The notes under the pieces: generated by a model | Seen by the model: only the letters and a program-made list of their open reading frames with translations | Told to the model about the DNA's origin: nothing | The model's database searches: none | Shown: positions 11,368 through 49,342 of the stretch, one piece after another | Layout: every line of letters begins with the position of its first letter | Position numbering within the stretch: the first letter of the stretch is position 1 | Made by a program: the position numbers and the translations under genes | Source: Methylomagnum ishizawai | GTDB taxonomy: Bacteria > Pseudomonadota > Gammaproteobacteria > Methylococcales > Methylococcaceae | Direction: 5' to 3' | DNA: 64,000 bases | Assembly: GCF_900155475.1 (NCBI RefSeq) | Contig: NZ_FXAM01000001.1 | Coordinates: 186,001 to 250,000, forward strand

Positions 11368-11460
11368 GGTGTCTTGCTTCTCCAGAGAGGTTGCAATCCA
11401 CCTTGCGTCCGCGGGCACGTAGCGTAGCTCGATACACCGCGGGGCGAGGTGGGTGTAATC

Positions 11461-11528
11461 GAGCGCCGTTGGGTTGAGGCCATCGCCCCGAGCCTGGCGG
11501 CTTCTGGCCGTCGCAGCGCTCCTCGGGG
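11461..11528 (-). ncRNA. SAH riboswitch in the ahcY leader
   Basis: Read on the minus strand, CCCCGAG (11528-11522) pairs with CTCGGGG (11492-11486), enclosing the conserved GAGCGCTGCGAC segment and a small GGC/GCC hairpin. The downstream AACGGCGCTC segment then pairs its GCGCTC (11466-11461) with GAGCGC (11521-11516) as the expected pseudoknot. This is the known SAH-riboswitch architecture in its known place, about 95 bp ahead of ahcY. SAH binding turns ahcY on in characterised examples. The 220-bp gap between uma2 and ahcY is otherwise featureless. Confidence 0.93.
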
Positions 11529-11588
11529 AAAGGTAATCTTAGTTCAATGCTTCAGTTCGGGACGCGGATTCACGGGATAGTGGGAGCG

Positions 11589-16725: not shown

Positions 16726-17717
16726 GGCCGTGGCTCCGGGACGATGGATGAGTTCGCGGGCAACAAGGGCAGGATTTCGCGCACGCTGTCGTCCACGATG
16801 ATTTGCTGGTGGGCCAGGGGCAAGACTTCGCCCAGGGTTTCCAGATAGATGCGGGCGCGGGTTACGGCGGGGGCTTTGACGTATTGTTCCAACACCGCCC
16901 CGAAGGCGGCGGCGTCGCCCTCGGCCTCGTTGATGCGCTTGAAGCGGTAGCCCTCGGCGGCGCGGATTTTCTGGTCGGCCTCGCCCCTGGCGCGGGGCAC
17001 GGCCTTGTTGTAATCGCCGTTGGCGAGGTTGATGGCGTTCTCGCGGTCTTGCTGCGCCCGGTTGACCTCGTTGAACGAAGGCTGCACCGGCTTGGGCGGA
17101 TCGACGTTCTTGAGCTGGACTTGGTTGACCGACAGCCCCAGGTGATAACGCTTCGCCAGTTCGCCCATGCGGAGCAGGGCGGTTTCCTCGATCTCCTGGC
17201 GGCCGATGGTGATGATTTCATCGACGGTACGGTCGCCGATGATTTCGCGCATCACCGATTCCGACAAATCGCGCAGGGTCTGCCCAGGGTTCCGTACCTC
17301 GAACAGATAGGTTTCGGGTTCGGTGATGCGGTATTGCACCACCCATTCGACCAGGGCCGAATTAAGATCGCCCGTCACCATGGATTTTTCCTGTTCGGGA
17401 AATTCGCCGGTTTGGTCGGGATTGGTGCGCCCCAGGCTGGCGAAGCCGAATTCCATCTTGAGCTGGCGCTGGGTCGGTACTCTGAACACCTCGTCGATAC
17501 CGAACGGTAGCTTGAAATGCAGGCCCGGCGGCACTTTGTCGATGTATTTACCGAAGCGCAGTAAAACGCCCTCGGATTCGGCGGGCACGGTGTAATAAGC
17601 GCTCCACAGGCCGGTCAGGATCGCGAGGGCGGCGAGGATGGGTCCGAGCGGAAGGGTGGGGAGTTGCGGGAACGAAGGCGGGGGCGGGGGGCTTTGGCCC
17701 CAGGGGTTGGTACTCAT
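16722..17717 (-). CDS. hflK: FtsH protease modulator HflK
   Basis: 331 residues. A short Pro-rich N-terminus (NPWGQSPPPPPSF) precedes one membrane segment around residues 28-44, then the band-7 domain (YYTVPAESEGVLLRFGKYID, PGLHFKLPFGID) and a coiled-coil tail. It is the partner of HflC, encoded with a 4-bp overlap. The N-terminal tail is shorter than in E. coli HflK (419 residues). The leader carries an ACGCAG/CTGCGT inverted repeat (17763-17768 with 17799-17804), of unknown use. Confidence 0.95.
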   Translation of the reverse strand: MSTNPWGQSPPPPPSFPQLPTLPLGPILAALAILTGLWSAYYTVPAESEGVLLRFGKYIDKVPPGLHFKLPFGIDEVFRVPTQRQLKMEFGFASLGRTNPDQTGEFPEQEKSMVTGDLNSALVEWVVQYRITEPETYLFEVRNPGQTLRDLSESVMREIIGDRTVDEIITIGRQEIEETALLRMGELAKRYHLGLSVNQVQLKNVDPPKPVQPSFNEVNRAQQDRENAINLANGDYNKAVPRARGEADQKIRAAEGYRFKRINEAEGDAAAFGAVLEQYVKAPAVTRARIYLETLGEVLPLAHQQIIVDDSVREILPLLPANSSIVPEPRP

Positions 17718-32391: not shown

Positions 32392-36154
<3,763 letters not shown>

Positions 36155-36252: not shown

Positions 36253-37719
36253 ATGAAATACCACGACCTCCGCGACTTCATCCAAGCCTTGGAAGCCCAG
36301 GGCGAACTCAAGCGCATCAAACTAGAAGCCGACCCCTACCTCGAAATCACCGAAATCTGTGACCGCACCCTGAAAGCCGCCGGCCCCGCCCTCTTGTTCG
36401 AGAAACCCAAGGGCAGCCAACACCGCCTGCTCGGCAACCTGTTCGGGACGCCCCGCCGCGTGGCCCTCGGCATGGGCCAGGAATCGGTGGACGCCCTGCG
36501 CGAAGTCGGCAAACTCCTCGCCTTCCTCAAGGAACCCGACCCACCCAAGGGTTTCCGCGACATGTTCGACAAGTTGCCGCTGTTCAAGCAGGTGTTGAAC
36601 ATGCCGGCCAAACTGGTGAAACATCCGCCCTGCCAGGAAATCGCGCTGGGCGGTTCCGACATCGACCTCGGACGCTATCCCATCCAAACCTGCTGGCCGG
36701 GCGACGCCGGGCCGCTCATCACCTGGGCCTTGGTCATCACCAAGGGGCCGCACAAGGAACGCCAGAACCTCGGCATCTACCGCCAGCAGGTGATCTCGCC
36801 CAATAAAACCATCATGCGTTGGCTGGCACATCGTGGCGGCGCATTGGACTTCCGCGACTGGCAAGCGGCCCGTCCGGGCGAACCCTTCCCGGTCGCGGTA
36901 GCCTTGGGAGCCGATCCCGCCACCATCCTGGGCGCGGTGACGCCAGTACCGGATAGCCTATCGGAATACGCCTTCGCGGGGCTCCTGCGCGGCTCCAAGA
37001 CCGAGGTCGCCCAATGCCTGACCTCCGACCTGCAAGTACCCGCCAGCGCCGAAATCGTGCTGGAAGGCTTCCTGTATCCGGGCGAAACCGCCCCGGAAGG
37101 CCCGTTCGGCGACCACACCGGCTATTACAACGAGGTGGACGAATTCCCGGTGTTCACCATCGAGCGCATCACCCAGCGCAGCGACGCCATCTACCACAGC
37201 ACCTACACCGGCCGCCCGCCGGACGAACCCGCCGTCCTGGGCGTGGCGCTGAACGAGGTGTTCGTGCCGATCCTGCAAAAACAATACCCGGAAATCGTCG
37301 ATTTCTACCTACCACCCGAGGGCTGTTCCTATCGTCTGGCGGTGGTCAGCATGAAAAAGCAATATCCGGGACACGCCAAGCGGGTGATGTTCGGGGTGTG
37401 GGGGTTCCTGCGGCAGTTCATGTACACCAAGTTCGTGATCGTGGTGGACGACGACGTGGACGCCCGCAACTGGCAGGATGTGATCTGGGCCATCACCACC
37501 CGCATGGACCCGGCGCGGGATATAACCCTCATCGAAAACACGCCCATCGATTATCTGGATTTCGCCTCGCCGGTGTCCGGGCTGGGTTCCAAGGCCGGTT
37601 TCGACGCCACTAATAAATGGCCGGGGGAAACCCAGCGGGAATGGGGCACGACGATCCAGATGACCGAGGCGGTGAAAAGGCGGGTGGACGAGATATGGGA
37701 AAGCTTGAATATTAAATAG
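36253..37719 (+). CDS. ubiD: 4-hydroxy-3-polyprenylbenzoate decarboxylase UbiD
   Basis: 488 residues, normal length. [62 protein letters not shown] and [15 protein letters not shown] are UbiD hallmarks; the Glu/Arg residues in the middle region act with prenylated FMN made by UbiX. It decarboxylates the quinone ring precursor in ubiquinone synthesis. It follows a terminator and begins its own unit. The gene to its right belongs to a lower-GC island that starts 16 bp after the stop. Confidence 0.96.
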
Positions 37720-37735
37720 AAGGGGGTAAGAAAAG

Positions 37736-38131
37736 ATGGCACAGGATTATCGTTATGACGAAAACGCGGGGAGTGCGGCTAATCGGCATTTCCATGATGC
37801 CAAAAAGCTGGAAGAAGACCACCGCTATGACAATGCTGGATACCATTATGGATTTGCAGCGGAATGCGCCGTAAAGCACGCTCTTATTCAAACCGGAATA
37901 TTGAAAGGTGACCCCATAATTAGGAAACTGCATTTCCCGGAGTTACGGGGAAATGCTGTTTTGGCTTTGCAAGGGAGGACATCCAGAGGCTTGCTTAATC
38001 TGTTACAACCCAGCTTTATGCAGCATTGGGATGTGGCGATGCGATATTCCAGCTCAGGCATGATTGACCGCGAAAAAGCCGAAAAATGGCGCATAGACGC
38101 GAACAAAGCCATTGGGCTTATGTTGTTTTAA
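37736..38131 (+). CDS. HEPN-like domain protein, first gene of a three-gene island
   Basis: 131 residues, nearly all helical. The pattern AANRHFHDAKKLEEDHRY, then AGYHYGFAAECAVKHALIQTG, and a C-terminal W-x4-RYSSSGM stretch resembles HEPN-type nucleotide/RNase domains. An R-x6-H (R30, H37) is present, but in an early helix, so catalytic function is unsure. The gene has about 47% GC against ~63% in ubiD. The next gene starts 18 bp downstream behind a strong AGGAGG, so the two are probably co-transcribed. It could be a toxin-like effector or a substrate-binding partner. Confidence 0.6.
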   Translation: MAQDYRYDENAGSAANRHFHDAKKLEEDHRYDNAGYHYGFAAECAVKHALIQTGILKGDPIIRKLHFPELRGNAVLALQGRTSRGLLNLLQPSFMQHWDVAMRYSSSGMIDREKAEKWRIDANKAIGLMLF

Positions 38132-38149
38132 CCGATACCAGGAGGAATC

Positions 38150-39505
38150 ATGCGCTTTGATGAAAGCCTAGCTGCCTTTGTGGCAGCGCTATTACCTATT
38201 TTAAACAAAGAAACTCTTGAAACTGGCTGGATCATCCGTGACGCTTCAGGTCGGCTTGCTTTCATCGCGGACAAAGCGCTTTCCGCGGACGAGCGTTCCC
38301 AAGCCGCGATAGCGGTAAAAACAAGCCTTGGGGAATATTGCCGCGAGTCTGGATGCGTCTTCGACAATGAACAACCAGGTATCCAAAGCGTGATTGAATC
38401 GGCAAGGGTATTTACCGAAACCATCAATAACGTGGCCGTTCGCCTTATCGACCGGCGCATCGTCGGCCAGGATTGGCTGATCGAACCCGCCCCCGGTTGG
38501 CAACCCCCCGCCCCCGCACGTTGGGTATTCGCCAGCTTGAAAGGGGGGGTTGGGCGTTCCACGGCTTTGGCCGTGGCCGCCACCGAACTGGCACGGCAGG
38601 GACGGAAAGTATTGGCGGTGGATTTGGATTTAGAGGCACCGGGTCTTGGAACTTTGTTGATCGAAGAATCGGATAAACCCAAATACGGGGTTTTGGATTG
38701 GTATGTCGAGCAGGGTATAGGAAGCATACCCGAAGAAGAAAATAACGAGTTTTTAGGAGATATGGTGGCACCCAGCCCGTTTGGCCGGGGCAAGGGATTA
38801 ATCGACGTGGTGCCAGCGATAGGCCGTATTTCCGACGACTATCCAGGAAATGTGCTTGCAAAACTAGCCCGTGCCTATCTCGATCTACCTCAAGAAGTAG
38901 GACAATCCCTAGGCTTCCTAGACCGGACCCAAAAACTGATAGATGAACTTGCCAGCCGCAGACAATATGACGCGGTTTTAGTGGATGCGCGGGCGGGTTT
39001 GAATGAAAGCACGGCTGCCGCAATACTAGGGCTGGGCGCGGATGTGTTGCTATTTGGTGTCGATACTCCCCAAACCTTCGCAGGTTATCGGTATCTGCTC
39101 GCCCATTTAAAAAAATTTATAAAACCCGATGACGATGACTGGTGGCTTAGGCTGCGTATGGTTCATGCCAAAGCCTCCCCGGACGAGCGGCGTAAACAGG
39201 GATTCCGTGATAAGGCATATAGGATTTTTTCCGAGTCGCTCTACCAGGATCGGCCCATACTGGATAACGACGATAATCCTTTGCTTAGCGGGATTAGTGA
39301 ACCCATTTATACCCAGATGTTTGACGTGGATAGCCGGGAAGCTCCCCATTATGCATGGCCTATTTTAGATGACTCCAATTATGCCGAGTTCGACCCCTTA
39401 GCCGAGCGCGTGCAAATGGACGAAGGCTTTTATGGTAGAACTTTCGCTGGCCTTGTTGAAGGCATTGGTGAATTGATCGAATTTCGGGAGAACACGAGTG
39501 AATGA
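38150..39505 (+). CDS. KGGVGR-type MinD/ParA-like ATPase
   Basis: 451 residues. After a ~120-residue N-terminal domain comes the deviant Walker A FASLKGGVGRSTAL (KGGVGRST at 131-138), where R replaces the usual K of KGGVGK-T. VLAVDLDLEAPGLGTLL (about 154-170) and VLVDARAGLNEST provide switch regions. The C-terminal part is family-specific. ParA/MinD-type ATPases dimerise on ATP and control partitioning or partner proteins; this variant has no assigned role. The lower GC and AT-rich codons suggest acquisition. The next gene overlaps by 8 bp. Confidence 0.82.
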   Translation: MRFDESLAAFVAALLPILNKETLETGWIIRDASGRLAFIADKALSADERSQAAIAVKTSLGEYCRESGCVFDNEQPGIQSVIESARVFTETINNVAVRLIDRRIVGQDWLIEPAPGWQPPAPARWVFASLKGGVGRSTALAVAATELARQGRKVLAVDLDLEAPGLGTLLIEESDKPKYGVLDWYVEQGIGSIPEEENNEFLGDMVAPSPFGRGKGLIDVVPAIGRISDDYPGNVLAKLARAYLDLPQEVGQSLGFLDRTQKLIDELASRRQYDAVLVDARAGLNESTAAAILGLGADVLLFGVDTPQTFAGYRYLLAHLKKFIKPDDDDWWLRLRMVHAKASPDERRKQGFRDKAYRIFSESLYQDRPILDNDDNPLLSGISEPIYTQMFDVDSREAPHYAWPILDDSNYAEFDPLAERVQMDEGFYGRTFAGLVEGIGELIEFRENTSE

Positions 39506-40967
39506 ATCCATAGATTTCGGAGCGATACGCCAAGCCCTGGCCGAATTAAGACCGGCATCGTCCCATCACGCCAATATTCCACCCAGCGTCGAAGAAATTT
39601 ATGCCCCCGAAGGCCATGAAGCCGCGCTGGACCCGGATCGGCCCTTGGTGGTGGGTGGCCGCGGTGTCGGCAAGAGCTTTTGGTCGGGTGCTTTGTATAG
39701 CAAAGGAACCCGTGAGCTGATTGCTCGTTATTACCCGCGTTCTGGACTTGATAAATGCAACGTGGCGCTTGGCTTTTCTGGAACGGATACCACACAAGGC
39801 GGACCGCCATCCAAGGAAATTATCGATGAATTAATAACCAAAGATGGCTTTAAACCAGAAATAATATGGCGGGCTGTAATATTACACGGCCTTCGCGAAT
39901 TTATCGATCTGCGATTGCCTAAAAATTGGCGCGGTCCTACTGGTTTAGTGGCTTGGGCGGCGGAAGACTCGGAAAGGCTGCAAATCACTTTCCGCACTGC
40001 TGATCGGTACCTTTCAGAGCAAGGTTTGCGGTTGATTGTGGTATTCGACGCCTTGGATAAGCTAGGCGATGATTGGATACAAATAAGGGAGCGCAGCAAA
40101 GCCTTGATGCGTGTCGCGCTTGCCTTGCGGAGCTATAAGGCAATCAAACCGAAAATATTCATGCGCGTTGACCAATATGACGATGTAGCGCTTTTTAATT
40201 TCCCGGATGCCTCGAAGCTTACAGGAGAAAAAGTTAGTTTAATTTGGGAAAGAAAAGACCTTTATGGAATTTTGTTTTATCAACTAGCTAACAATCAAGC
40301 CTCGTCCGCTGTTTTTAAAAGGCTGATGAAAAGTCGATTTGGAACCAATTTGGATGGAAAAAAAAGAAATGATCTGCCTATAGAATTGATACATGACGAA
40401 CGCAAGCAAGAGGTGCTTTTCACCTTGATTGCTGGCCAATACATGGGTAGCGACCCAAGACGAGGAAAAACATATACTTGGGTACATAATCATTTGGCGG
40501 ATGGCTTTGGCTTAGTCAGCCCGAGGACGTTTTTAGAATCTTTCAGGGCGGCAGCCCAACGCGGAAATCATTTGATAGGAAAAGCGTTAGACCCAAAAAG
40601 CCTGCAATATGGATTGCAAATCGCATCCGACGTTAGGGTGGATCAATTGAAAGAAGATTATGGATGGATCCGAATCGCGCTCGCACCCTTGGCTGACTTA
40701 GGTGTACCGTGCCAGGAAGCAGCATTGTTTGATCGCTGGGAATCAACCGATGCCATTAGGGACATACAAAAATCTGCGGAGCGAAAAGAATTCTTGGAGC
40801 CCGTGGAATTCAATTCTGGCGTCGGTGGCATGGAAAAATCATTATTGGAAGCGATGCGTCGTATCGGGGTAGCGGAACGTCGCCCGGATGGGCGGATCAA
40901 CGTTCCCGATATTTACCGCGTAGCAGCGAAATTACTTCGCCGGGGAGGGGTTTCCCCCAGGCGTTGA
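39498..40967 (+). CDS. Large P-loop NTPase, third gene of the island
   Basis: 489 residues from a GTG at 39498 with GGGAG 8 bases ahead; it overlaps the KGGVGR gene, so translation is coupled. Walker A GGRGVGKS is at 53-60 and a Walker B-like VVFDALDKLG at 181-190. The rest is alpha-helical and resembles the P-loop ATPases of the Sll1717 type by general layout (fairly sure of the fold, not of the subfamily). It shows the same lower GC as the two genes before it. No nuclease or membrane motif is visible. Confidence 0.75.
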   Translation: MNESIDFGAIRQALAELRPASSHHANIPPSVEEIYAPEGHEAALDPDRPLVVGGRGVGKSFWSGALYSKGTRELIARYYPRSGLDKCNVALGFSGTDTTQGGPPSKEIIDELITKDGFKPEIIWRAVILHGLREFIDLRLPKNWRGPTGLVAWAAEDSERLQITFRTADRYLSEQGLRLIVVFDALDKLGDDWIQIRERSKALMRVALALRSYKAIKPKIFMRVDQYDDVALFNFPDASKLTGEKVSLIWERKDLYGILFYQLANNQASSAVFKRLMKSRFGTNLDGKKRNDLPIELIHDERKQEVLFTLIAGQYMGSDPRRGKTYTWVHNHLADGFGLVSPRTFLESFRAAAQRGNHLIGKALDPKSLQYGLQIASDVRVDQLKEDYGWIRIALAPLADLGVPCQEAALFDRWESTDAIRDIQKSAERKEFLEPVEFNSGVGGMEKSLLEAMRRIGVAERRPDGRINVPDIYRVAAKLLRRGGVSPRR

Positions 40968-40995
40968 TAAATAGTAGAAAACCATAAGGAACAGT

Positions 40996-41721
40996 ATGAA
41001 CTCACCGAAATCCCACCACATCGCCATCTCCGCTTCCCTGATTTGCTGCGACCTGCTCAACGTCGAGCGCGAATTGCGCCAGATGGAGGAAGCGGGCATC
41101 GACTCCCTCCACATCGACCTGATCGACGGCCATTTCAGCCCGAGCATGCCCTTGGGGCTGGATTTGGTACGGCAGGCCCGCCGGAAAACCCGGTTGCCCT
41201 TCGACGCGCACCTGATGGTGGAGAACAACGAATTCTTCGTCCAGGAAATGCTGGATATCGGCGCGGAACGGATCGCCTTCCATTACGAATCGGCCTTCCA
41301 TGTGGACCGGCTGCTGTGCCTCATCCGTGAGCGCGGCGTCAAGGCCGGGCTGGCGCTGATGCCGACCACGCCGCTGTCGGTGCTGGATTACTGCGTGGAC
41401 CGGCTGGATTTCGTCCTGCTGATGCTCATCAATCCCGGCTTCGCGGGGCGCAAGGACGAAACCCAGGTACCCTACGCCCTGCGCCGGGTGGCCGATTGCC
41501 GCCGTCATCTGCAGGGTTTCGGACTCGATATCCCCATCGAGGTCGATGGCCGGGTGGATTTCGACACTATTCCGGGACTTATCGCCGCCGGAGCCACCGA
41601 TTTGGTGGTCGGCACCCGCAGCGCCTTCCATCCCGGCGGCACACTGGCCGAAAACATCCACAGGATGCGGCAAGCCGCCGCCGCGGGCTTTTCCAAGCGT
41701 CCCGGACCAGCCTGTGGATAA
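40996..41721 (+). CDS. Ribulose-phosphate 3-epimerase family protein (AlsE-like)
   Basis: 241 residues, a TIM barrel. ISASLICCDLLNVERELRQM, HIDLIDGHFSPSMPLG, DAHLMVENNEFF, LMLINPGFAGRKDE, IEVDGRVD and VVGTRSAFHPGG follow the Rpe order, with His and Asp metal ligands kept. The opening and the DGRV (in place of DGGI) are nearer to allulose-6-phosphate epimerase than to typical Rpe. It interconverts ketose phosphates at C3. In a RuMP-pathway organism it could help regenerate ribulose 5-phosphate. The stop abuts the first DnaA box. Confidence 0.85.
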   Translation: MNSPKSHHIAISASLICCDLLNVERELRQMEEAGIDSLHIDLIDGHFSPSMPLGLDLVRQARRKTRLPFDAHLMVENNEFFVQEMLDIGAERIAFHYESAFHVDRLLCLIRERGVKAGLALMPTTPLSVLDYCVDRLDFVLLMLINPGFAGRKDETQVPYALRRVADCRRHLQGFGLDIPIEVDGRVDFDTIPGLIAAGATDLVVGTRSAFHPGGTLAENIHRMRQAAAAGFSKRPGPACG

Positions 41722-41960
41722 CTTTGAGTACGGCCCCGGCCTGTGGATAAGTCTTTGGATAACTACTGTATAACTCCCCCTGAACCCTGTGGATAAGCTG
41801 TGGAAAAAATTTCCGGTTGCGGAGACGCCGCTGGAATAGCAGGGTTATCCACAATCCATCCACAGCTTATACACAAGTTTTCCACAGGAAAAAAAGCTAC
41901 AACATATTGATTTTTAAGTGAAAAAATCACTTATCCACAAAAACAGGGAAAGACAATAAT
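41713..41960. other. DnaA-box cluster with AT-rich tract, candidate oriC
   Basis: Perfect TTATCCACA boxes, either strand, start at 41713, 41742, 41788, 41845 and 41931, with TTATACACA at 41867. One-mismatch copies lie at 41754, 41799 and 41878. The boxes to 41796 point one way (TGTGGATAA) and the later ones the other. From 41887 to 41970 the sequence is A/T-rich, with inverted repeat AAGTGA/TCACTT (41916-41932). This 360-bp gap is by far the AT-richest in the window. It is an oriC-like or DnaA-titrating locus; neither dnaA nor mnmG is adjacent. Confidence 0.7.
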
Positions 41961-42078
41961 AACAAGGTTTTCTTTTTGGTTTCTATTACGCGCCGGCGTC
42001 CGAGAGTTCCGGGAAGCTTCCTGGTGGGTGGGCGGACGAACCCCCATCCCGCGCCGCGCCCAACCCTGCGAATCCTCA

Positions 42079-44439
42079 ATGCCGAAGCATCCTATCCCCC
42101 GCATCCACCCTATTCCTGGTTTACCGATCCTGCTGTTCCTAACCATCTCCGCCGCCGGGCTGGCCCAAACCGCCGACGCCCCGAACCCGGGCCTACGGGC
42201 GCAGGAATGGCAAAAAAGCCTCGACGAGGCCGAAAAAGCGACTGCGGAACCCAACATCCCGGACAGCAAGCTGGCCGATTGGCGCGACCGCCTGCTCGAC
42301 CTGATCGCGCAGGCCAGGGAAGCGGTTCATAACGTCGAACCCGATATCCAAACCTTGCGGAGCGACCTGGAAGCGCTGGGACCGGCCCCGGCGGTGGACG
42401 CGGCTCCCGAGGCCGCCAACGTCGTGGCCCGGCGCAAGGAACTCAATGCCGGGATCGCCAGCCTGGAAGGCGTGGTGAAGGAGGCCGACCTGGCGTCCGT
42501 CCGGGCCGGACGCCTGCTCGCCGAGGTCAAGGCCACCCAGCGCACCCGTTTCACCGGGCGTATCCTGACCCGAAGCCCGTCGCCCTTGAGTCCCGCCATC
42601 TGGGGCAAAGCCCTACCCGAACTGGGTTCCGCCCTGGCCGCGCTCTACCACAGCCTGATGGACAAAGCCACGCCAACGGCAATCCTGACCATTGGGCGGC
42701 CCCTGGCCTTGGGGATGACCTTGGCCACCTTGCTGGCGTTCCCGCTACGGGCCGGACTGATCCGCAAATTCGGCTACATCGTGGTCGAGGATGCGCCGAC
42801 CTACATGCAGCGCCTATGGACCGCCCTATTCACCGGCCTGGTGCGGACCTTATTGCCCACAGCGGCGGCGCTGGCCGTCTACCTGGGACTGCTCTACACC
42901 GATTGGCCGGGGGAAGCCGTGGCCGATGTGCTACGGGTGGGCCTGCTTTCCCTGGCGGCGCTGTTCTTCGTGACCGGCTTCACCCGTTCAGCCCTGGCAC
43001 CGGACCAGCCGGATTGGCGGCTGGTACCCATCCACGACCCAGGTGCCCGGACTTTGAACCGGACCGTCACCGGACTGGCGATCCTGTTCGCGCTGGACCA
43101 CACCTTGGGCGAACTGGCCAACCAGTACGATGCTTCGGTCGAGTTGGTCTCCACACAGAAATTCGTGTTCGGCGCCTTGATTTCGCTGGCGTTGCTCAGA
43201 CTGGTCGGGCGGGGAGTCTGGCCCGAGGACCCGGCCCGGCCCGGATGGAACCGGGTCCGCTACGGCTTGACACTGCTGATCGCAGCGATACCGGCCTCGG
43301 CCATGCTGGGCTATGTGGCGTTGTCACGTCTACTGGCGACGCAATGGGTGCTGACCCTGGGACTCTACGCCACGGTCGCGCTATTGAACCGGATCGTCCA
43401 GGAAGCGGTGGAACACGCCTTGAACCCGGCCTCGCCCCAGGGCCAACGCCTGCGCACCGCCCTGGCCCTGGGCGAGGAGGGCGCGGAGATGCTGGCGTTC
43501 TGGGCGGTGGGATTCATACGCTGTTCGATCCTGCTGCTGGCGGCCTTGGCCTTGCCCTTACTCTGGGGCGTGCCAGGCAAGGATATCGCCGCTTGGCTCG
43601 GGAACGCCTTCGTGGGTTTCAAACTGGGGAATCTCAACCTGTCGCTGGGCGAAATCCTGGTGGCGCTGTTGTCGTTCACCGGGTTGCTACTCGCGACGCG
43701 GATGCTGCAAAAGACGCTGGACCAAAGGATTTTCCCCAAGACCCGGCTCGACCAGGGCATCCGCAACTCGATCCGCTCCGGCCTGGGCTATGCCGGTTTC
43801 TCCTTGGCCTTGGTGATCGCGGTATCGATCCTGGGGCTGGATTTATCCAACCTCGCCATGATCGCCGGGGCCTTGTCGGTGGGCATCGGTTTCGGATTGC
43901 AGAACATCGTCAACAACTTCGTCTCCGGCTTGATCCTGCTGGTGGAACGCCCCATCAAGGCCGGCGATTGGGTGGTGGTCGGCGAATACCAGGGCTATGT
44001 CAAGAAAATCAGCGTCCGGGCCACCGAGATTTCCACCTTCGACCGGGCTTCGGTGTTCATTCCCAATTCCAGCCTGATTTCCGGTACGGTGATGAACCGC
44101 ACCTATGCCGACAAGACCGGGCGAGTACTGTTGCCCATCGGCCTGGCCTACCACTCTGATCCGCACCAAGCCCGCCAGGTATTGCTGGACATCGCCCAGG
44201 AACATCCCGATATTCGCGATACCCCGCCACCCTCGGTGTTCTTCCAAAGCTTCGGCGACAGCGCCCTCAACCTGGAATTGGTCGCCGTGCTGCACGATGT
44301 AGACAAGGTCAAACAAGTGACCAGCGACCTGTGTTTCGCCATCCACGCGGCCTTCCAACGGGAAGGGATCGAAATTCCGTTCCCGCAACGCGATATCAAA
44401 CTCAGCCTGGACGAGGAACAACTACGGCGCTACCTCTGA
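42079..44439 (+). CDS. Large MscS-type mechanosensitive channel (DUF3772/MscS)
   Basis: 786 residues from the ATG at 42079; a longer frame upstream is not convincing. A signal peptide ends near AAGLAQTADA. A periplasmic helical domain of about 150 residues comes next (DUF3772-like: WRDRLLDLIAQAREAVHNVEPD). Several membrane segments then lead to the pore and MscS domain: GALSVGIGFGLQNIVNNFVSG, then ERPIKAGDWVVVGEYQGYVK and IPNSSLISGTVMNRTY. It should protect against osmotic downshock at the inner membrane. It lies between the DnaA-box cluster and the moxR operon. Confidence 0.9.
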   Translation: MPKHPIPRIHPIPGLPILLFLTISAAGLAQTADAPNPGLRAQEWQKSLDEAEKATAEPNIPDSKLADWRDRLLDLIAQAREAVHNVEPDIQTLRSDLEALGPAPAVDAAPEAANVVARRKELNAGIASLEGVVKEADLASVRAGRLLAEVKATQRTRFTGRILTRSPSPLSPAIWGKALPELGSALAALYHSLMDKATPTAILTIGRPLALGMTLATLLAFPLRAGLIRKFGYIVVEDAPTYMQRLWTALFTGLVRTLLPTAAALAVYLGLLYTDWPGEAVADVLRVGLLSLAALFFVTGFTRSALAPDQPDWRLVPIHDPGARTLNRTVTGLAILFALDHTLGELANQYDASVELVSTQKFVFGALISLALLRLVGRGVWPEDPARPGWNRVRYGLTLLIAAIPASAMLGYVALSRLLATQWVLTLGLYATVALLNRIVQEAVEHALNPASPQGQRLRTALALGEEGAEMLAFWAVGFIRCSILLLAALALPLLWGVPGKDIAAWLGNAFVGFKLGNLNLSLGEILVALLSFTGLLLATRMLQKTLDQRIFPKTRLDQGIRNSIRSGLGYAGFSLALVIAVSILGLDLSNLAMIAGALSVGIGFGLQNIVNNFVSGLILLVERPIKAGDWVVVGEYQGYVKKISVRATEISTFDRASVFIPNSSLISGTVMNRTYADKTGRVLLPIGLAYHSDPHQARQVLLDIAQEHPDIRDTPPPSVFFQSFGDSALNLELVAVLHDVDKVKQVTSDLCFAIHAAFQREGIEIPFPQRDIKLSLDEEQLRRYL

Positions 44440-44648
44440 CTCCGAATTCAGATAGGCCAGGAAGCCACCTAGACCGTCCATGGCGCGGCGAAACGCCAAA
44501 TACCGCCCCGCCACATCGGATCACGTTCCTGGCCCCTCAGCGCCCTCACCGCATCCTGGACCGGCGGGGGCATTTCCGCCCCGGCTATTCCAACCCGATA
44601 AAACCCTATACTTCTCATCCAACCTCCCAGCCCAACCCGAACAACCCC

Positions 44649-45563
44649 ATGCGCAACTCCCTCGACGCCCTCCTCGCCACTGCCAACACCGTCATCCTGG
44701 GAAAACCCCGCCAAATCCGGCTGGCGGTGTGCTGTCTCCTGGCTCGCGGCCACCTCCTCATCGAAGACGTGCCGGGCGTTGGCAAAACCACCCTGGCCCA
44801 TACCCTGGCCAACCTGTTGGGGTTGGATTACCAACGCATCCAATTCACCAGCGATCTGCTACCCGCCGATGTGCTGGGCGCTTCGATTTACGATGCCAAA
44901 AACCATAGCTTCCGGTTCCAACCCGGCCCGATCTTCCATCAGATGATCCTGGCCGACGAAATCAACCGCTCCACCCCCAAGGCCCAGAGCGCCCTGCTCG
45001 AAGCCATGGAAGAACACCAGGTCACGGTCGAAGGCGAAACCCGGCCCCTACCCGAACCCTTCTTCGTCATCGCCACCCAGAATCCCATCCATCAAATCGG
45101 CACTTTCCCACTACCCGAATCTCAACTCGACCGCTTCCTGATGCGCCTCACCCTGGGTTATCCCGACAGCCGCTCGGAATTGGCGCTGTACAAGGGCGCG
45201 GAACGCCACAGCTTGTTGGAAAAACTGCCGGTCCGCCTACCCGCCGATGAATTGCGTGGCTTGCAGGAGGCAATCCGGGCCATCCACGCTTCCGATGCCT
45301 TACTGGGCTATGTACAGGCTTTAGTGCGGTTCAGCCGCGAATCCGGGCATTACGAAATCGGCTTGTCGCCACGGGCAGGCTTGGCTTTGCTAAGCGCGGC
45401 GCGGGCCTGGGCCTATACCGAAAGCCGCGAAGTGGTGTTACCGGAAGATGTGCAGGCGGTGCTGGCCCCGGTCTGCGGTCACCGGCTGAAACCCGTGGGC
45501 AGTGGGGCCGTGACCGCCGAGGCCGTGGTCGGCCCGATGCTGGATCAAATCACGGTCATCTAA
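44649..45563 (+). CDS. MoxR-family AAA+ ATPase
   Basis: 304 residues from the ATG at 44649. Walker A is EDVPGVGKTTLAHTLA (about 38-53), Walker B MILADEINRSTPKAQSALLEAM, sensor 1 FFVIATQNPIHQIGTFPLPE, and a C-terminal lid with GLSPRAGLALLSAARAWA. MoxR ATPases act as chaperones, often activating VWA-domain or membrane proteins. DUF58 and TgpA genes follow closely, a classic arrangement. The DUF4129, SpoIIM and DUF4350 members of such clusters lie at 18-21.7 kb instead. Confidence 0.94.
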   Translation: MRNSLDALLATANTVILGKPRQIRLAVCCLLARGHLLIEDVPGVGKTTLAHTLANLLGLDYQRIQFTSDLLPADVLGASIYDAKNHSFRFQPGPIFHQMILADEINRSTPKAQSALLEAMEEHQVTVEGETRPLPEPFFVIATQNPIHQIGTFPLPESQLDRFLMRLTLGYPDSRSELALYKGAERHSLLEKLPVRLPADELRGLQEAIRAIHASDALLGYVQALVRFSRESGHYEIGLSPRAGLALLSAARAWAYTESREVVLPEDVQAVLAPVCGHRLKPVGSGAVTAEAVVGPMLDQITVI

Positions 45564-45635
45564 AGCTTGAGACCTGAGGCTTGGGGGTCGCAGCCTCGGG
45601 CCTCCAGCCCCGTACTTCACGCCGAGTCCCAACCC

Positions 45636-46589
45636 ATGGCTTCCCCCACCCTCAAGCAACGCTTCGACCTGCAACGCTTTTTCCGGGGCGATCAAGCGGT
45701 GCCCGGTCCTATCGTGCTGACCCATCGTTTGGTTTTCATCGTACCGAACCAGCGCGGGCTGGGGCTGGCCTTGCTCTTGTTCATCCTGTGGCTGACCTCG
45801 ATCAACTACAGCAGCAACCTGGGTTTCATCCTGACTTTCCTATTGGTCGCCATCGCCCTGCTGGGGATGCTTCATGGCTATCGCAATCTCGCCGGACTAT
45901 CGATCCGGCCCAAACCCAGCCCGCCGGTCTTTGCGGGCGAGCAGGCCCGTTGGGAACTCATGGTCGCCAATCCCGGCCTGTTGCCGCGCTACGCGGTGTG
46001 GTGCCGCTGCAAGGGGGCGGAGCCGGTACGGATCGATATCGCCGCCGAAGCCACCGCCAACCCCGCGCTGGGCCTGCCGACCGCCCAGCGCGGCTGGCTC
46101 GAACCGGGCACGGTGCGGATTTACAGCGAATTCCCGCTGGGCCTGTTCCATGCGTGGTCGCTGCTGAATTTCCAGGAACGCATCCTGGTTTATCCGCGGC
46201 CCGCGCCCACGCCCATGGATTTCCCGATCTCGGGCGGCTATGGCCGCTTCAACCGACAAGCGCATAGCGCCGAGGATTTCCACGGCTTCCAGACCTATCA
46301 AGCGGGCGATCCCTTGCGACATATCCATTGGAAGGGCGTCGCCAAGGGCCACGATCCGCAAGTCAAACGCTACGTGGGTGGCGAGACCGAGGATTTGGCC
46401 TTCGCGTTCGAAGAAACCCCCGGCGGCGACACCGAAAGTCGCTTGAGCCGCCTCTGCCGCTGGATCATCGACGCCGAAGCCGCCGGGCTGCGTTATTCCC
46501 TCAGCCTGCCCGGTACCCGCATCGCCGCCAATTCCGGGGCCGCCCATAGCCGCCTTTGCCTCAAAACCCTCGCCCTGTTCCAGCTATGA
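45636..46589 (+). CDS. DUF58 domain protein
   Basis: 317 residues from the ATG at 45636 (MASPTLKQRFDLQRFF). Two membrane segments near residues 48-83 (LALLLFILWLTSIN, LTFLLVAIALLGML) precede a cytoplasmic DUF58 domain. It has the core FNRQAHSAEDFHGFQTYQAGDPLRHIHWKGVAKG, quoted here only in part as family evidence. DUF58 proteins accompany MoxR. The stop overlaps the transglutaminase start (ATGA). The gap to moxR is 72 bp. Confidence 0.93.
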   Translation: MASPTLKQRFDLQRFFRGDQAVPGPIVLTHRLVFIVPNQRGLGLALLLFILWLTSINYSSNLGFILTFLLVAIALLGMLHGYRNLAGLSIRPKPSPPVFAGEQARWELMVANPGLLPRYAVWCRCKGAEPVRIDIAAEATANPALGLPTAQRGWLEPGTVRIYSEFPLGLFHAWSLLNFQERILVYPRPAPTPMDFPISGGYGRFNRQAHSAEDFHGFQTYQAGDPLRHIHWKGVAKGHDPQVKRYVGGETEDLAFAFEETPGGDTESRLSRLCRWIIDAEAAGLRYSLSLPGTRIAANSGAAHSRLCLKTLALFQL

Positions 46590-48568
46590 CCGCCATCCCG
46601 CTCCGCGATACCCTGACCGCCGCCTTCGAGAAACTGCTGCTGTTCAGTCTGGTGTTCGTCGCCCTGCCTCATGCCGCCAACCTGCATCCCACGGTATTCG
46701 GCTTCTTCGCCCTGTTGGCGGCTTGGCGCTATGCCACGGTGGAACGGCCCGGCCTGCGTCCCGGTAAATGGATGCTGGGCTTGTTGATGCTATGCGCCAT
46801 GGCCTTGGTGTACGCCCATTACCATCGCTTCTACGGGCGGGAAGGTGGCTCGGCCTTGTTCCTGGTCGGCCTGGGGCTGAAGCTCATGGAGATGAAAACC
46901 CGGCGCGAGGTGTACCTGGTCATCTTCCTCGGCTTTTTCGTGGCGATGACCCAGTACCTGTTCTCGCAGACCATCCCCATGGCGCTCTATACCCTGGTGG
47001 CGGTGGGTTTGTCGGTGGGGGTTTTGATCGGGGCGGGCGGTGGTCCGGCCTTGGCTCCCGCCGCGGCGTTCAAGCGTTCCGCCGCCCTGGTGGCACAGGC
47101 CGTGCCGATCATGCTGGTGCTGTTCCTGTTCTTCCCGCGGCTTCCCGGTCCCTTGTGGAAACTGCCCGACGACGAGCGCCACGCCAAGACCGGCCTCAGC
47201 GACAAGCTCGAACCCGGCAGCATCAGCCACCTGGGCCGTTCCGCCGAACCGGCGTTCCGGGTCGATTTCCAGGGTGCACCGCCGCCCAACGCCTTGCGCT
47301 ATTGGCGCGGCCCGGTGTTCTGGCATACCAATGGCACCCGCTGGGATGTGGCGGTGGATAAGCCTTTGCCGCACGACCAGGAACCCAAATTTTCCGGGCC
47401 GGCCTACCGCTACGCCATCACCCTGGAACCGCATCGGCGTCGTTGGCTGTTCGCCCTGGATTTACCCAGCGGCTTCCCGTCCGATGTGACGCAGACGGCG
47501 GAATATCTGCTGCTGACCAAAGACCCGGTCCACGAGCGCCGCCGGTTCGAGTTGGTTTCGCAACCCGCTTTCCGCACCGGCCCGCTGAGTCCCGTCGAGC
47601 GGACGCAAGGTTTACAACTTCCCGACCCACCGGACGGGCGCGTCCGCGCCCTGGTCGAGGCTTGGCGCGGCGAATCGGCCCGGCCCGGCGATTGGGTACA
47701 ACGGGCTTTGCGCTATTTCCGCGAGGAAGCGTTCTTCTACACCCTCAACCCGCCCGCGCTGGAAGACCATCCCATCGAGCGCTTTCTGTTCGAGACCCGC
47801 CGCGGTTTCTGCGAGCACTACGCCACCAGCTTCGTCTACCTGATGCGGGTGGCGGGCATTCCGGCGCGGGTGGTGACGGGCTATCAGGGCGGGGTTTGGA
47901 ACCCGGTGGGCCGATTCCTCGAAGTACGGCAGGCCGACGCCCACGCCTGGGCCGAGGTCTGGTTGCCGGAGCGGGGCTGGACCCGGATCGATCCCACCGC
48001 CGCCGTCGCGCCCGAGCGCATCGAGCAAGGCATCGACCTGGACGCCGCCAGCCCGGAAGGCGATGTGATGTTCAACCCGGTGGGCGAAGCCTTGGCCGGA
48101 CGCGCCCAAGGCTTCCGCGACTGGCTCCGCCAAGGCCGGATGCTCTGGGCCAGCGTCGATCATGCCTGGAACCAATGGGTGCTGGCCTATGATCCCGAGC
48201 AACAACAGCGGTTTTGGGGGAGTCTCGGCATCATGGAATGGGGCAAACTGGCGCTATGGATGGGCGGCTTACTGGGTCTGTGCGGAGCTGCGGCGGCTTT
48301 GTTATTCTGGCCCCGCCGGAAAACCCCGCCCGACCCCGCCGTATTGGCCTATCAGCGCTTTTTGGGGAAATTGGCCCGGCGCGGCGTGGTCAAGCGCACC
48401 GGCGAAGGGCCGCTGGATTTCTCGCGGCGGGCCATGACCGAGCGGCCCGAGGCTGCCGCGACCATCGTTCGGATCACCGGGATATTCTTGGGATTGCGCT
48501 ACGGGAAAACGGCGCGGGCGGAGGATTTGGCGCGGTTGCGGCGGCTGGTGCGGGAATTCCGGGTTTAG
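46586..48568 (+). CDS. tgpA: TgpA-type transglutaminase, DUF3488/DUF4129
   Basis: 660 residues. About five to six membrane segments fill the first ~200 residues, then a transglutaminase-like core with catalytic Cys in TRRGFCEHYATSF, His in QADAHAWAEVW and Asp in WTRIDPTAAV. A further membrane segment near residue 560 and a C-terminal DUF4129-like tail follow. In Pseudomonas TgpA is an essential periplasmic-facing transglutaminase. The gene is coupled to DUF58. A hairpin at 48574-48598 follows. Confidence 0.93.
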   Translation: MTAIPLRDTLTAAFEKLLLFSLVFVALPHAANLHPTVFGFFALLAAWRYATVERPGLRPGKWMLGLLMLCAMALVYAHYHRFYGREGGSALFLVGLGLKLMEMKTRREVYLVIFLGFFVAMTQYLFSQTIPMALYTLVAVGLSVGVLIGAGGGPALAPAAAFKRSAALVAQAVPIMLVLFLFFPRLPGPLWKLPDDERHAKTGLSDKLEPGSISHLGRSAEPAFRVDFQGAPPPNALRYWRGPVFWHTNGTRWDVAVDKPLPHDQEPKFSGPAYRYAITLEPHRRRWLFALDLPSGFPSDVTQTAEYLLLTKDPVHERRRFELVSQPAFRTGPLSPVERTQGLQLPDPPDGRVRALVEAWRGESARPGDWVQRALRYFREEAFFYTLNPPALEDHPIERFLFETRRGFCEHYATSFVYLMRVAGIPARVVTGYQGGVWNPVGRFLEVRQADAHAWAEVWLPERGWTRIDPTAAVAPERIEQGIDLDAASPEGDVMFNPVGEALAGRAQGFRDWLRQGRMLWASVDHAWNQWVLAYDPEQQQRFWGSLGIMEWGKLALWMGGLLGLCGAAAALLFWPRRKTPPDPAVLAYQRFLGKLARRGVVKRTGEGPLDFSRRAMTERPEAAATIVRITGIFLGLRYGKTARAEDLARLRRLVREFRV

Positions 48569-48573
48569 GGCGC

Positions 48574-48598
48574 GGAACGATCCCTTCAGGGACGTTCC
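48574..48598 (+). terminator. Inverted repeat after tgpA
   Basis: GGAACG-A-TCCC (48574-48584), loop TTCA, GGGACGTTCC (48589-48598). It lacks a T-run, so it may be a Rho-assisted or processing hairpin. Confidence 0.45.
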
Positions 48599-48688
48599 CG
48601 GCGGCGGGGTCGCGCTATACTTGCCCGACCCTTGTGGGCGCAATGGACAAATCCCGGTCCAGCCGCCCATCCCTCAGGAGACCCAGCA

Positions 48689-49342
48689 GTGTATTACTCC
48701 TCCTCTTCCAGAAGCCGGGGCTACCGGAGTTCCGGTTCCCGCCGCTACGATCCCAACGACAATTTCCACCTCAAGTCCCGGAAAGACTCGGGTAAAACCA
48801 AGCTGCTGTTCGCGCTCGCGGTATTCCTGGTCCTGCAAAGCCTCTATTTGCTGGTGTCGTATATCCGCATGAGCATCGCCGAGGCCGATACTCTGGAACT
48901 CACCCTATCCGAAAGGAAACAGCAGCAGGAATTGGACATCCTGAGGCCGCAGGCGCAAAAGCTCAGGGCCGATATCGAAACCCTGGGCCAAGGCGGCCTG
49001 CCCGAACTGACCCGCCTGGAATTCGACAAGGTGTTGACCATGGACCAGGACTATGTGAAGAACATCGTGTTTACGGTCTCCGGCAGGGGCGACGACCGGG
49101 TATACGAATACAAGATGGTGATGCACAACGGCAGTTTGAACCTGATCCATCCGCAGGTGGATATCCTGTTCTTCGATCCGCAGGGCATCCAGGTCGGCAT
49201 GTCGCGGCTGGGAGTGCAGGGCGATGGTGTCACGCCCACCCTGGAAGTCATGGAACGCGGCGAAATCCGCTCGTTCTCCTCGCAAATCCAATTGAGCGAC
49301 AGCGCCAAGCCGGGTTATTTCCGCTTGAGAATCTGGAAATAA
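48689..49342 (+). CDS. Membrane-anchored hypothetical protein with coiled coil
   Basis: 217 residues from a GTG at 48689, chosen because CAGGAG stands 7-8 bases before it; an earlier in-frame ATG at 48632 has no ribosome site. A Ser/Arg-rich cytoplasmic tail (YYSSSSRSRGYRSSGSRRYD) precedes one membrane segment near residues 40-60 (LLFALAVFLVLQSLYLLVSYI). A coiled coil (ERKQQQELDILRPQAQKLRADIE) and a beta-rich periplasmic domain follow. No family recognised. It converges with cysE 7 bp away. Confidence 0.75.
   Translation: MYYSSSSRSRGYRSSGSRRYDPNDNFHLKSRKDSGKTKLLFALAVFLVLQSLYLLVSYIRMSIAEADTLELTLSERKQQQELDILRPQAQKLRADIETLGQGGLPELTRLEFDKVLTMDQDYVKNIVFTVSGRGDDRVYEYKMVMHNGSLNLIHPQVDILFFDPQGIQVGMSRLGVQGDGVTPTLEVMERGEIRSFSSQIQLSDSAKPGYFRLRIWK

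Follow-up and report, generated by a model that had tools for sequence, protein, structure and literature searches.

The oriC of E. coli K-12 comprises 245 bp in its minimal form, is located in the mnmG-mioC intergenic region and contains two opposed arrays of DnaA boxes. GATCAACAACCTG has been named as its IHF site (PMC4285127), and TTGT and TTATT elements are required for the binding of DnaA to the single-stranded E. coli DUE (ssDUE; PMC5742627). Clusters of DnaA boxes and IHF sites are likewise carried by datA and DARS2 (PMC5742627). For M. capsulatus, Ward et al. assigned the origin to the region upstream of gidA on the basis of skew (PMC517821).

The locus described here lies in the window, i.e. 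the whole 64-kb stretch of DNA that was analysed (contig C1:186001-250000). C1 has a length of 4.63 Mb, and an overlap of 12.4 kb between its two ends (99.6% identity) shows it to be a circular chromosome; three genes of the particulate-monooxygenase-A family (pmoA family) in the genome identify the host as a methanotroph, presumably of the family Methylococcaceae. Its lineage is a gammaproteobacterial order, which we take to be distantly related to E. coli. We propose, with a probability of roughly 0.93, that positions 41713-41990 constitute the oriC of this 4.6-Mb chromosome (Table 1).

The locus combines the features of an E. coli-type oriC, i.e. dense DnaA boxes, a DUE on one flank, ssDUE motifs and an IHF site between the R1-like box and the next boxes. 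Boxes, their orientation and spacing, the IHF consensus, instability, conservation and skew position were all computed directly. On the minus strand, the DUE with TTGTTATTATTGT (41965-41953) is followed by the R1-like box, which reads TGTGGATAA (41939-41931), and by the IHF consensus AATCAATATGTTG (41912-41900), 27 bp from the R1-like box and on the same strand. Next comes the proximal array, four boxes in exact 11-bp steps (starts 41886, 41875, 41864 and 41853), and, after a 37-bp gap, the distal array in the opposite orientation (41807-41713). The R1-like box sits inside the AT-rich stretch, with the ssDUE motif beyond it. At the other end the outermost box (TGTGGATAA, 41713-41721) supplies the TAA stop codon of the rpe paralogue, i.e. 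gene end and origin overlap. The 14-mer CTTTGGATAACTAC surrounding the box at 41754-41762 is also present in E. coli oriC. As the region contains no GATC, no SeqA/Dam-dependent sequestration of the E. coli kind would be expected.

Table 1. Features of the proposed origin and its surroundings (window positions)
Feature	Position	Strand	Basis or remark
Ribulose-phosphate 3-epimerase (rpe) paralogue	40996-41721	+	flanking gene
Proposed oriC: DnaA-oligomerisation region and DUE	41713-41990		box cluster, DUE instability, homologues
DnaA box TTATCCACA, distal array	41713-41721	-	exact match
DnaA box TTATCCACA, distal array	41742-41750	-	exact match
DnaA box TTATCCAAA, distal array	41754-41762	-	one mismatch
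DnaA box TTATCCACA, distal array	41788-41796	-	exact match
DnaA box TTTTCCACA, partner in conserved 46-bp divergent pair	41799-41807	-	one mismatch
Core DnaA box TTATCCACA inside conserved 20-mer TTATCCACAATCCATCYACA	41845-41853	+	exact match, conservation
Weak DnaA box CCATCCACA, 11 bp from core box	41856-41864	+	relaxed scan
DnaA box TTATACACA, 11-bp phased	41867-41875	+	exact match
DnaA box TTTTCCACA, 11-bp phased	41878-41886	+	one mismatch
Least stable 100 bp of window, contains DUE	41888-41987		nearest-neighbour energy
IHF consensus AATCAATATGTTG	41900-41912	-	consensus match only
R1-like DnaA box TTATCCACA, DUE-proximal	41931-41939	+	exact match, conservation
TTGTTATTATTGT, E. coli-type ssDUE DnaA motifs (TTGT, TTATT)	41953-41965	-	core identical in G001
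MscK-like mechanosensitive channel	42079-44439	+	flanking gene
moxR - DUF58 - tgpA - further gene (48632-49342)	44643-49342	+	oriC adjoins this block in other genera

All six exact copies of TTATNCACA in the window lie within 41713-41939, three on the minus strand followed by three on the plus strand, and none of 100 dinucleotide shuffles of the window reached six exact boxes (mean 0.58). Together with three one-mismatch boxes (TTATCCAAA at 41754, TTTTCCACA at 41799 and 41878) they span 227 bp. Among the 62 exact boxes of the 5.48-Mb genome this is the only such cluster; the second-densest group, on a 79-kb contig, has three boxes spaced 54 bp apart, and the whole-genome scan found nowhere else on the chromosome more than two exact boxes per 300 bp. 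When the surrounding ~790 kb are scanned with relaxed criteria, the cluster scores 61 and the runner-up 16. The sequence-only reading had already counted six canonical and at least three one-mismatch boxes in 227 bp, which the exact and mismatch scans reproduce, and had called this density far above chance, in line with the shuffles and with the uniqueness of the cluster. The orientation flip that it saw around 41800-41845 falls between the boxes ending at 41807 and starting at 41845, i.e. at 41808-41844, and its adjacent A/T-rich tract corresponds to 41885-41990 (72% A+T in surroundings of ~63% GC), within which lie the least stable 100 bp (41888-41987) that the boxes abut. The small inverted repeat is present as well (TGATTTTT/AAAAATCA, 41908-41929), with the overlapping IHF site being the more informative feature.

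Regarding the mechanism, protein binding, opening and initiation are inferred by homology with E. coli. DnaA would occupy the strong boxes, and IHF would introduce a bend between the R1-like box (41931) and the 11-bp-phased proximal array (41845-41886). Both this array and the opposed distal array (41713-41807) may then be filled by ATP-DnaA, and the resulting strain would open the AT-rich DUE (about 41940-41987). Finally, DnaA might hold the T-rich minus strand at TTGTTATTATTGT and load the helicase.

The cluster is located at chromosome position 227.8 kb, adjacent to neither mnmG nor dnaA-dnaN, just as the sequence-only reading had remarked. The dnaA-dnaN genes lie ~298 kb away at 524-528 kb (dnaA at 526 kb), in the usual order yidD-rnpA-rpmH-dnaA-dnaN as read from the sequence, with one DnaA box upstream of dnaA. 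The group mnmG-gidB-parA is found at 50-54 kb (mnmG 51.8-53.6 kb, ~174 kb from the cluster), and no DnaA boxes were found near mnmG. The skew, for which ~0.78 Mb of contiguous sequence and additional samples were used, is positive in the rest of the chromosome up to ~2.5 Mb and mostly negative after ~2.7 Mb; the cumulative curve drops towards the locus and climbs past ~270 kb, with a broad, noisy trough at 90-270 kb. Fitting the skew of fourfold-degenerate sites with a gene-strand term, i.e. strand-corrected skew, places the best origin at 224 kb (2-unit interval 136-270 kb), less than 4 kb from the cluster. The log-likelihood lies 0.12 units below the optimum at the cluster, 3.2 at the priA region (149 kb), 7.9 at mnmG and 12.7 at dnaA. 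Thus, the cluster is located at the skew minimum at a resolution of ~100 kb. The skew excludes dnaA and mnmG as origin; by itself it cannot separate the cluster from the priA region, because bootstrapping the corrected estimate yields two modes (53% of replicates fall within 40 kb of the cluster and 34% near 149 kb) and because, without correction, the change point lies at 145 kb (raw minimum 145-150 kb), close to the priA/HNH intergenic region.

Further evidence comes from the relatives. The congener G001 carries the same nine boxes, likewise at the junction of rpe and mscK. None of these boxes differs, in contrast to the diverged central spacer and AT-rich linker, and the IHF site is kept as AATCAATAAGTTA despite its changed surroundings. 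In each of the six genomes of the sibling genus g9 the core TTATCCACAATCCATCYACA is found with no more than one mismatch, accompanied by a divergent partner box at a distance of 46 bp, by an R1-like box near +87 that is often degenerate and, in G031, G009 and G027, by the exact IHF consensus at +57. G043, which belongs to another family of the order, combines the core box with an R1-like box at +89 and the IHF consensus at +58. Across genera the homologues thus share the 46-bp divergent pair, an R1-like box at +86-89 and the IHF consensus at +55-58. That the relatives have less dense box arrays than the window genus counts against the assignment. The IHF consensus is present in 6 of 15 segments (six genomes, three genera), always at offset 55-58 and on the same strand, offset and strand being shared by G001, G031, G009, G027 and G043; in shuffled segments, with every position and both strands counted, it turned up in 0.1-2.2% of trials for each genome (0.3-1.7% for the six genomes that have it). 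A match to the core 20-mer in G030 sits inside a coding gene and was discarded.

Two relatives have the conserved element at their skew minimum. For G027, a member of g9, this minimum falls at 500-540 kb, and the homologue was located at 502.9 kb, 1.6 kb from mnmG and between stomatin-like and polyphosphate-kinase-2-like genes; in G012 the skew changes sign between 3.52 Mb and 0, and the homologue is at 3.999 Mb. Five genomes representing four genera (G015, G026, G014, G004 and G012) have the 46-bp pair next to the tgpA end, and in G015, G026 and G014 it lies between tgpA and the orthologue of the window gene at 48632-49342 (the names DUF58 and tgpA were assigned by sequence inspection). Hence, the element occurs in three settings, i.e. 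beside tgpA, between stomatin-like and polyphosphate-kinase-like genes near mnmG (g9), and between the rpe paralogue and the mscK-like gene (window genus). In the window no oriC is present between tgpA (end 48568) and the gene starting at 48632; as these two genes are adjacent and the cluster lies ~7 kb upstream of their junction, past both the mscK-like gene and moxR, a local move of the origin in the window genus, away from its place beside tgpA, is probable. In g9, moxR-DUF58-tgpA lies 300 kb from the origin homologue, suggesting a longer-distance move. The "unusual location" of the sequence-only reading therefore holds relative to dnaA and mnmG, but in several genera of the family the origin is found beside moxR-DUF58-tgpA. 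We lean towards the view that the oriC of this family is a compact, movable module that has been relocated at least twice while its box-IHF-DUE geometry was kept. The g9 neighbourhood cannot be traced in the window genome, which has no intact copy of PAP, the polyphosphate-kinase-2-like neighbour of the g9 origin (its only traces are a partial, weak match at 1.13 Mb and stop-containing fragments at 4.28 Mb). A MoxR neighbour common to the window and G043 was dropped as synteny, the G043 gene being a 41-43% paralogue.

The sequence-only reading had left open whether the cluster is an oriC or a datA-like sink. If it were of the datA or DARS type, it would bind DnaA and alter its nucleotide state, with replication starting elsewhere, and the combination of a box cluster with an IHF site would fit such a role. 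Such a site is very unlikely, because the element possesses a highly unstable DUE with ssDUE motifs directly adjoining the cluster, its g9 homologue coincides with the skew minimum and with the published position of the origin, and no other cluster in the genome could act as oriC. The decision for oriC thus rests on the DUE, on the R1-IHF distance and strand of E. coli and on the skew minimum of the relatives, and it is further backed by the skew optimum nearby and the lack of a rival of comparable box density. Marking out the locus by GC skew had been suggested along with the sequence-only reading, together with an outcome that would speak against an origin, i.e. a skew minimum elsewhere and a second, dnaA-linked cluster. 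The strand-corrected optimum favours the cluster, the raw change point being at 145 kb, and such a dnaA-linked cluster was not found, dnaA having a single box and a likelihood far below the optimum.

That raw change point, together with boxes conserved in relatives, could argue for the priA/HNH intergenic region (chromosome 148.9-149.1 kb) as the true origin and the window cluster as a secondary site. However, only two exact boxes, ~190 bp apart, are found there, and the strand-corrected likelihood clearly prefers the cluster. We rejected this pair as origin because its homologous region in G027 is at 23 kb, ~480-520 kb from the skew minimum at which the cluster homologue lies, and regard it as even less probable than a datA- or DARS-like site. 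As the cluster is directly upstream of the mscK-like gene, it might also be a DnaA-regulated promoter of that gene, or it might have arisen by chance or from repeats; the shuffles, the boxes invariant in G001 between diverged spacers and the spacing conserved in other genera with unrelated flanking genes leave these readings a next to negligible probability. The priA/HNH-endonuclease intergenic region (C1:148905-149102 in the window genome, G000) itself contains a DnaA-box pair, TTATGCACA and TTATCCACA at a distance of ~180-190 bp, frequently followed 5 bp later by an inverted box. This pair recurs with similar spacing in several genera and has a second copy at C1:4126254-4126440. It possibly serves DnaA control of priA or DnaA titration.

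Several other features of the genome were observed. A 3.3-kb island of low GC content (52%; window 37713-41021) beside oriC encodes a HEPN protein, an AAA ATPase with KGGVGR motif and a P-loop ATPase of the Sll1717 family; G001 has an unrelated 1.6 kb in its place, and the island is possibly defence-type cargo. A PD-(D/E)XK transposase-family gene (PF12784; window 35237-36154) directly follows ligA and is not at that place in G001, and an S-adenosylhomocysteine riboswitch (Rfam RF01057, 61.5 bits) is found at window 11454-11530 on the minus strand. Box positions recur after 66,435 bp in contig C4 and after about 12,015 bp in contig C8, so that both probably represent circular replicons (~66.4 and 12.0 kb) whose ends overlap in the assembly; C4 carries three iteron-like TTATCCACA at 54-bp spacing (17145-17261). 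The separate 360-kb contig C2 contains a third, divergent AMO/pMMO subunit-A gene (160886-161587) and, ~4 kb from it, tandem exact DnaA boxes (165600/165612).

A literature search yielded no report of such an origin position in methanotrophs. With the proposed oriC, a precise origin that can be tested becomes available for a methanotroph lineage in which dnaA and mnmG, the landmarks commonly used, are misleading, and the combination of 46-bp divergent DnaA-box pair, IHF site, R1-like box and DUE may serve as family-wide signature for finding oriC in related genomes.

Among the known systems, datA and DARS2 of E. coli resemble the window cluster in their DnaA boxes and IHF site, but they are not replication origins, whereas the window cluster has a DUE attached and is the sole origin candidate. 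The putative origin of M. capsulatus (Bath) upstream of gidA is matched by g9, in which the gene context of mnmG and gidB agrees with the published location (PMC517821). The homologous core of g9 shares TTATCCACAATCCATCTACA, the 46-bp box pair, the R1-like box and the IHF consensus with the window, but lies between stomatin-like and polyphosphate kinase-2-like genes ~1.6 kb from mnmG, whereas the window cluster is flanked by the rpe paralogue and the mscK-like gene, 174 kb from mnmG. Unlike E. coli oriC, the window cluster is not beside mnmG, lacks GATC and recognisable 13-mer repeats and has far more consensus boxes. Both have the DUE at one end, the same orientation of R1 and opposed distal boxes including TTTGGATAACTAC, and the next box in R1 orientation is 53 bp from R1 in the window vs 55 bp in E. 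coli. Moreover, the IHF site GATCAACAACCTG of E. coli begins 27 bp after the R1 start on the same strand, exactly as in the window. The preservation of this distance in a distant order suggests that this portion of the architecture is ancient, with the gene neighbourhood being free to change.
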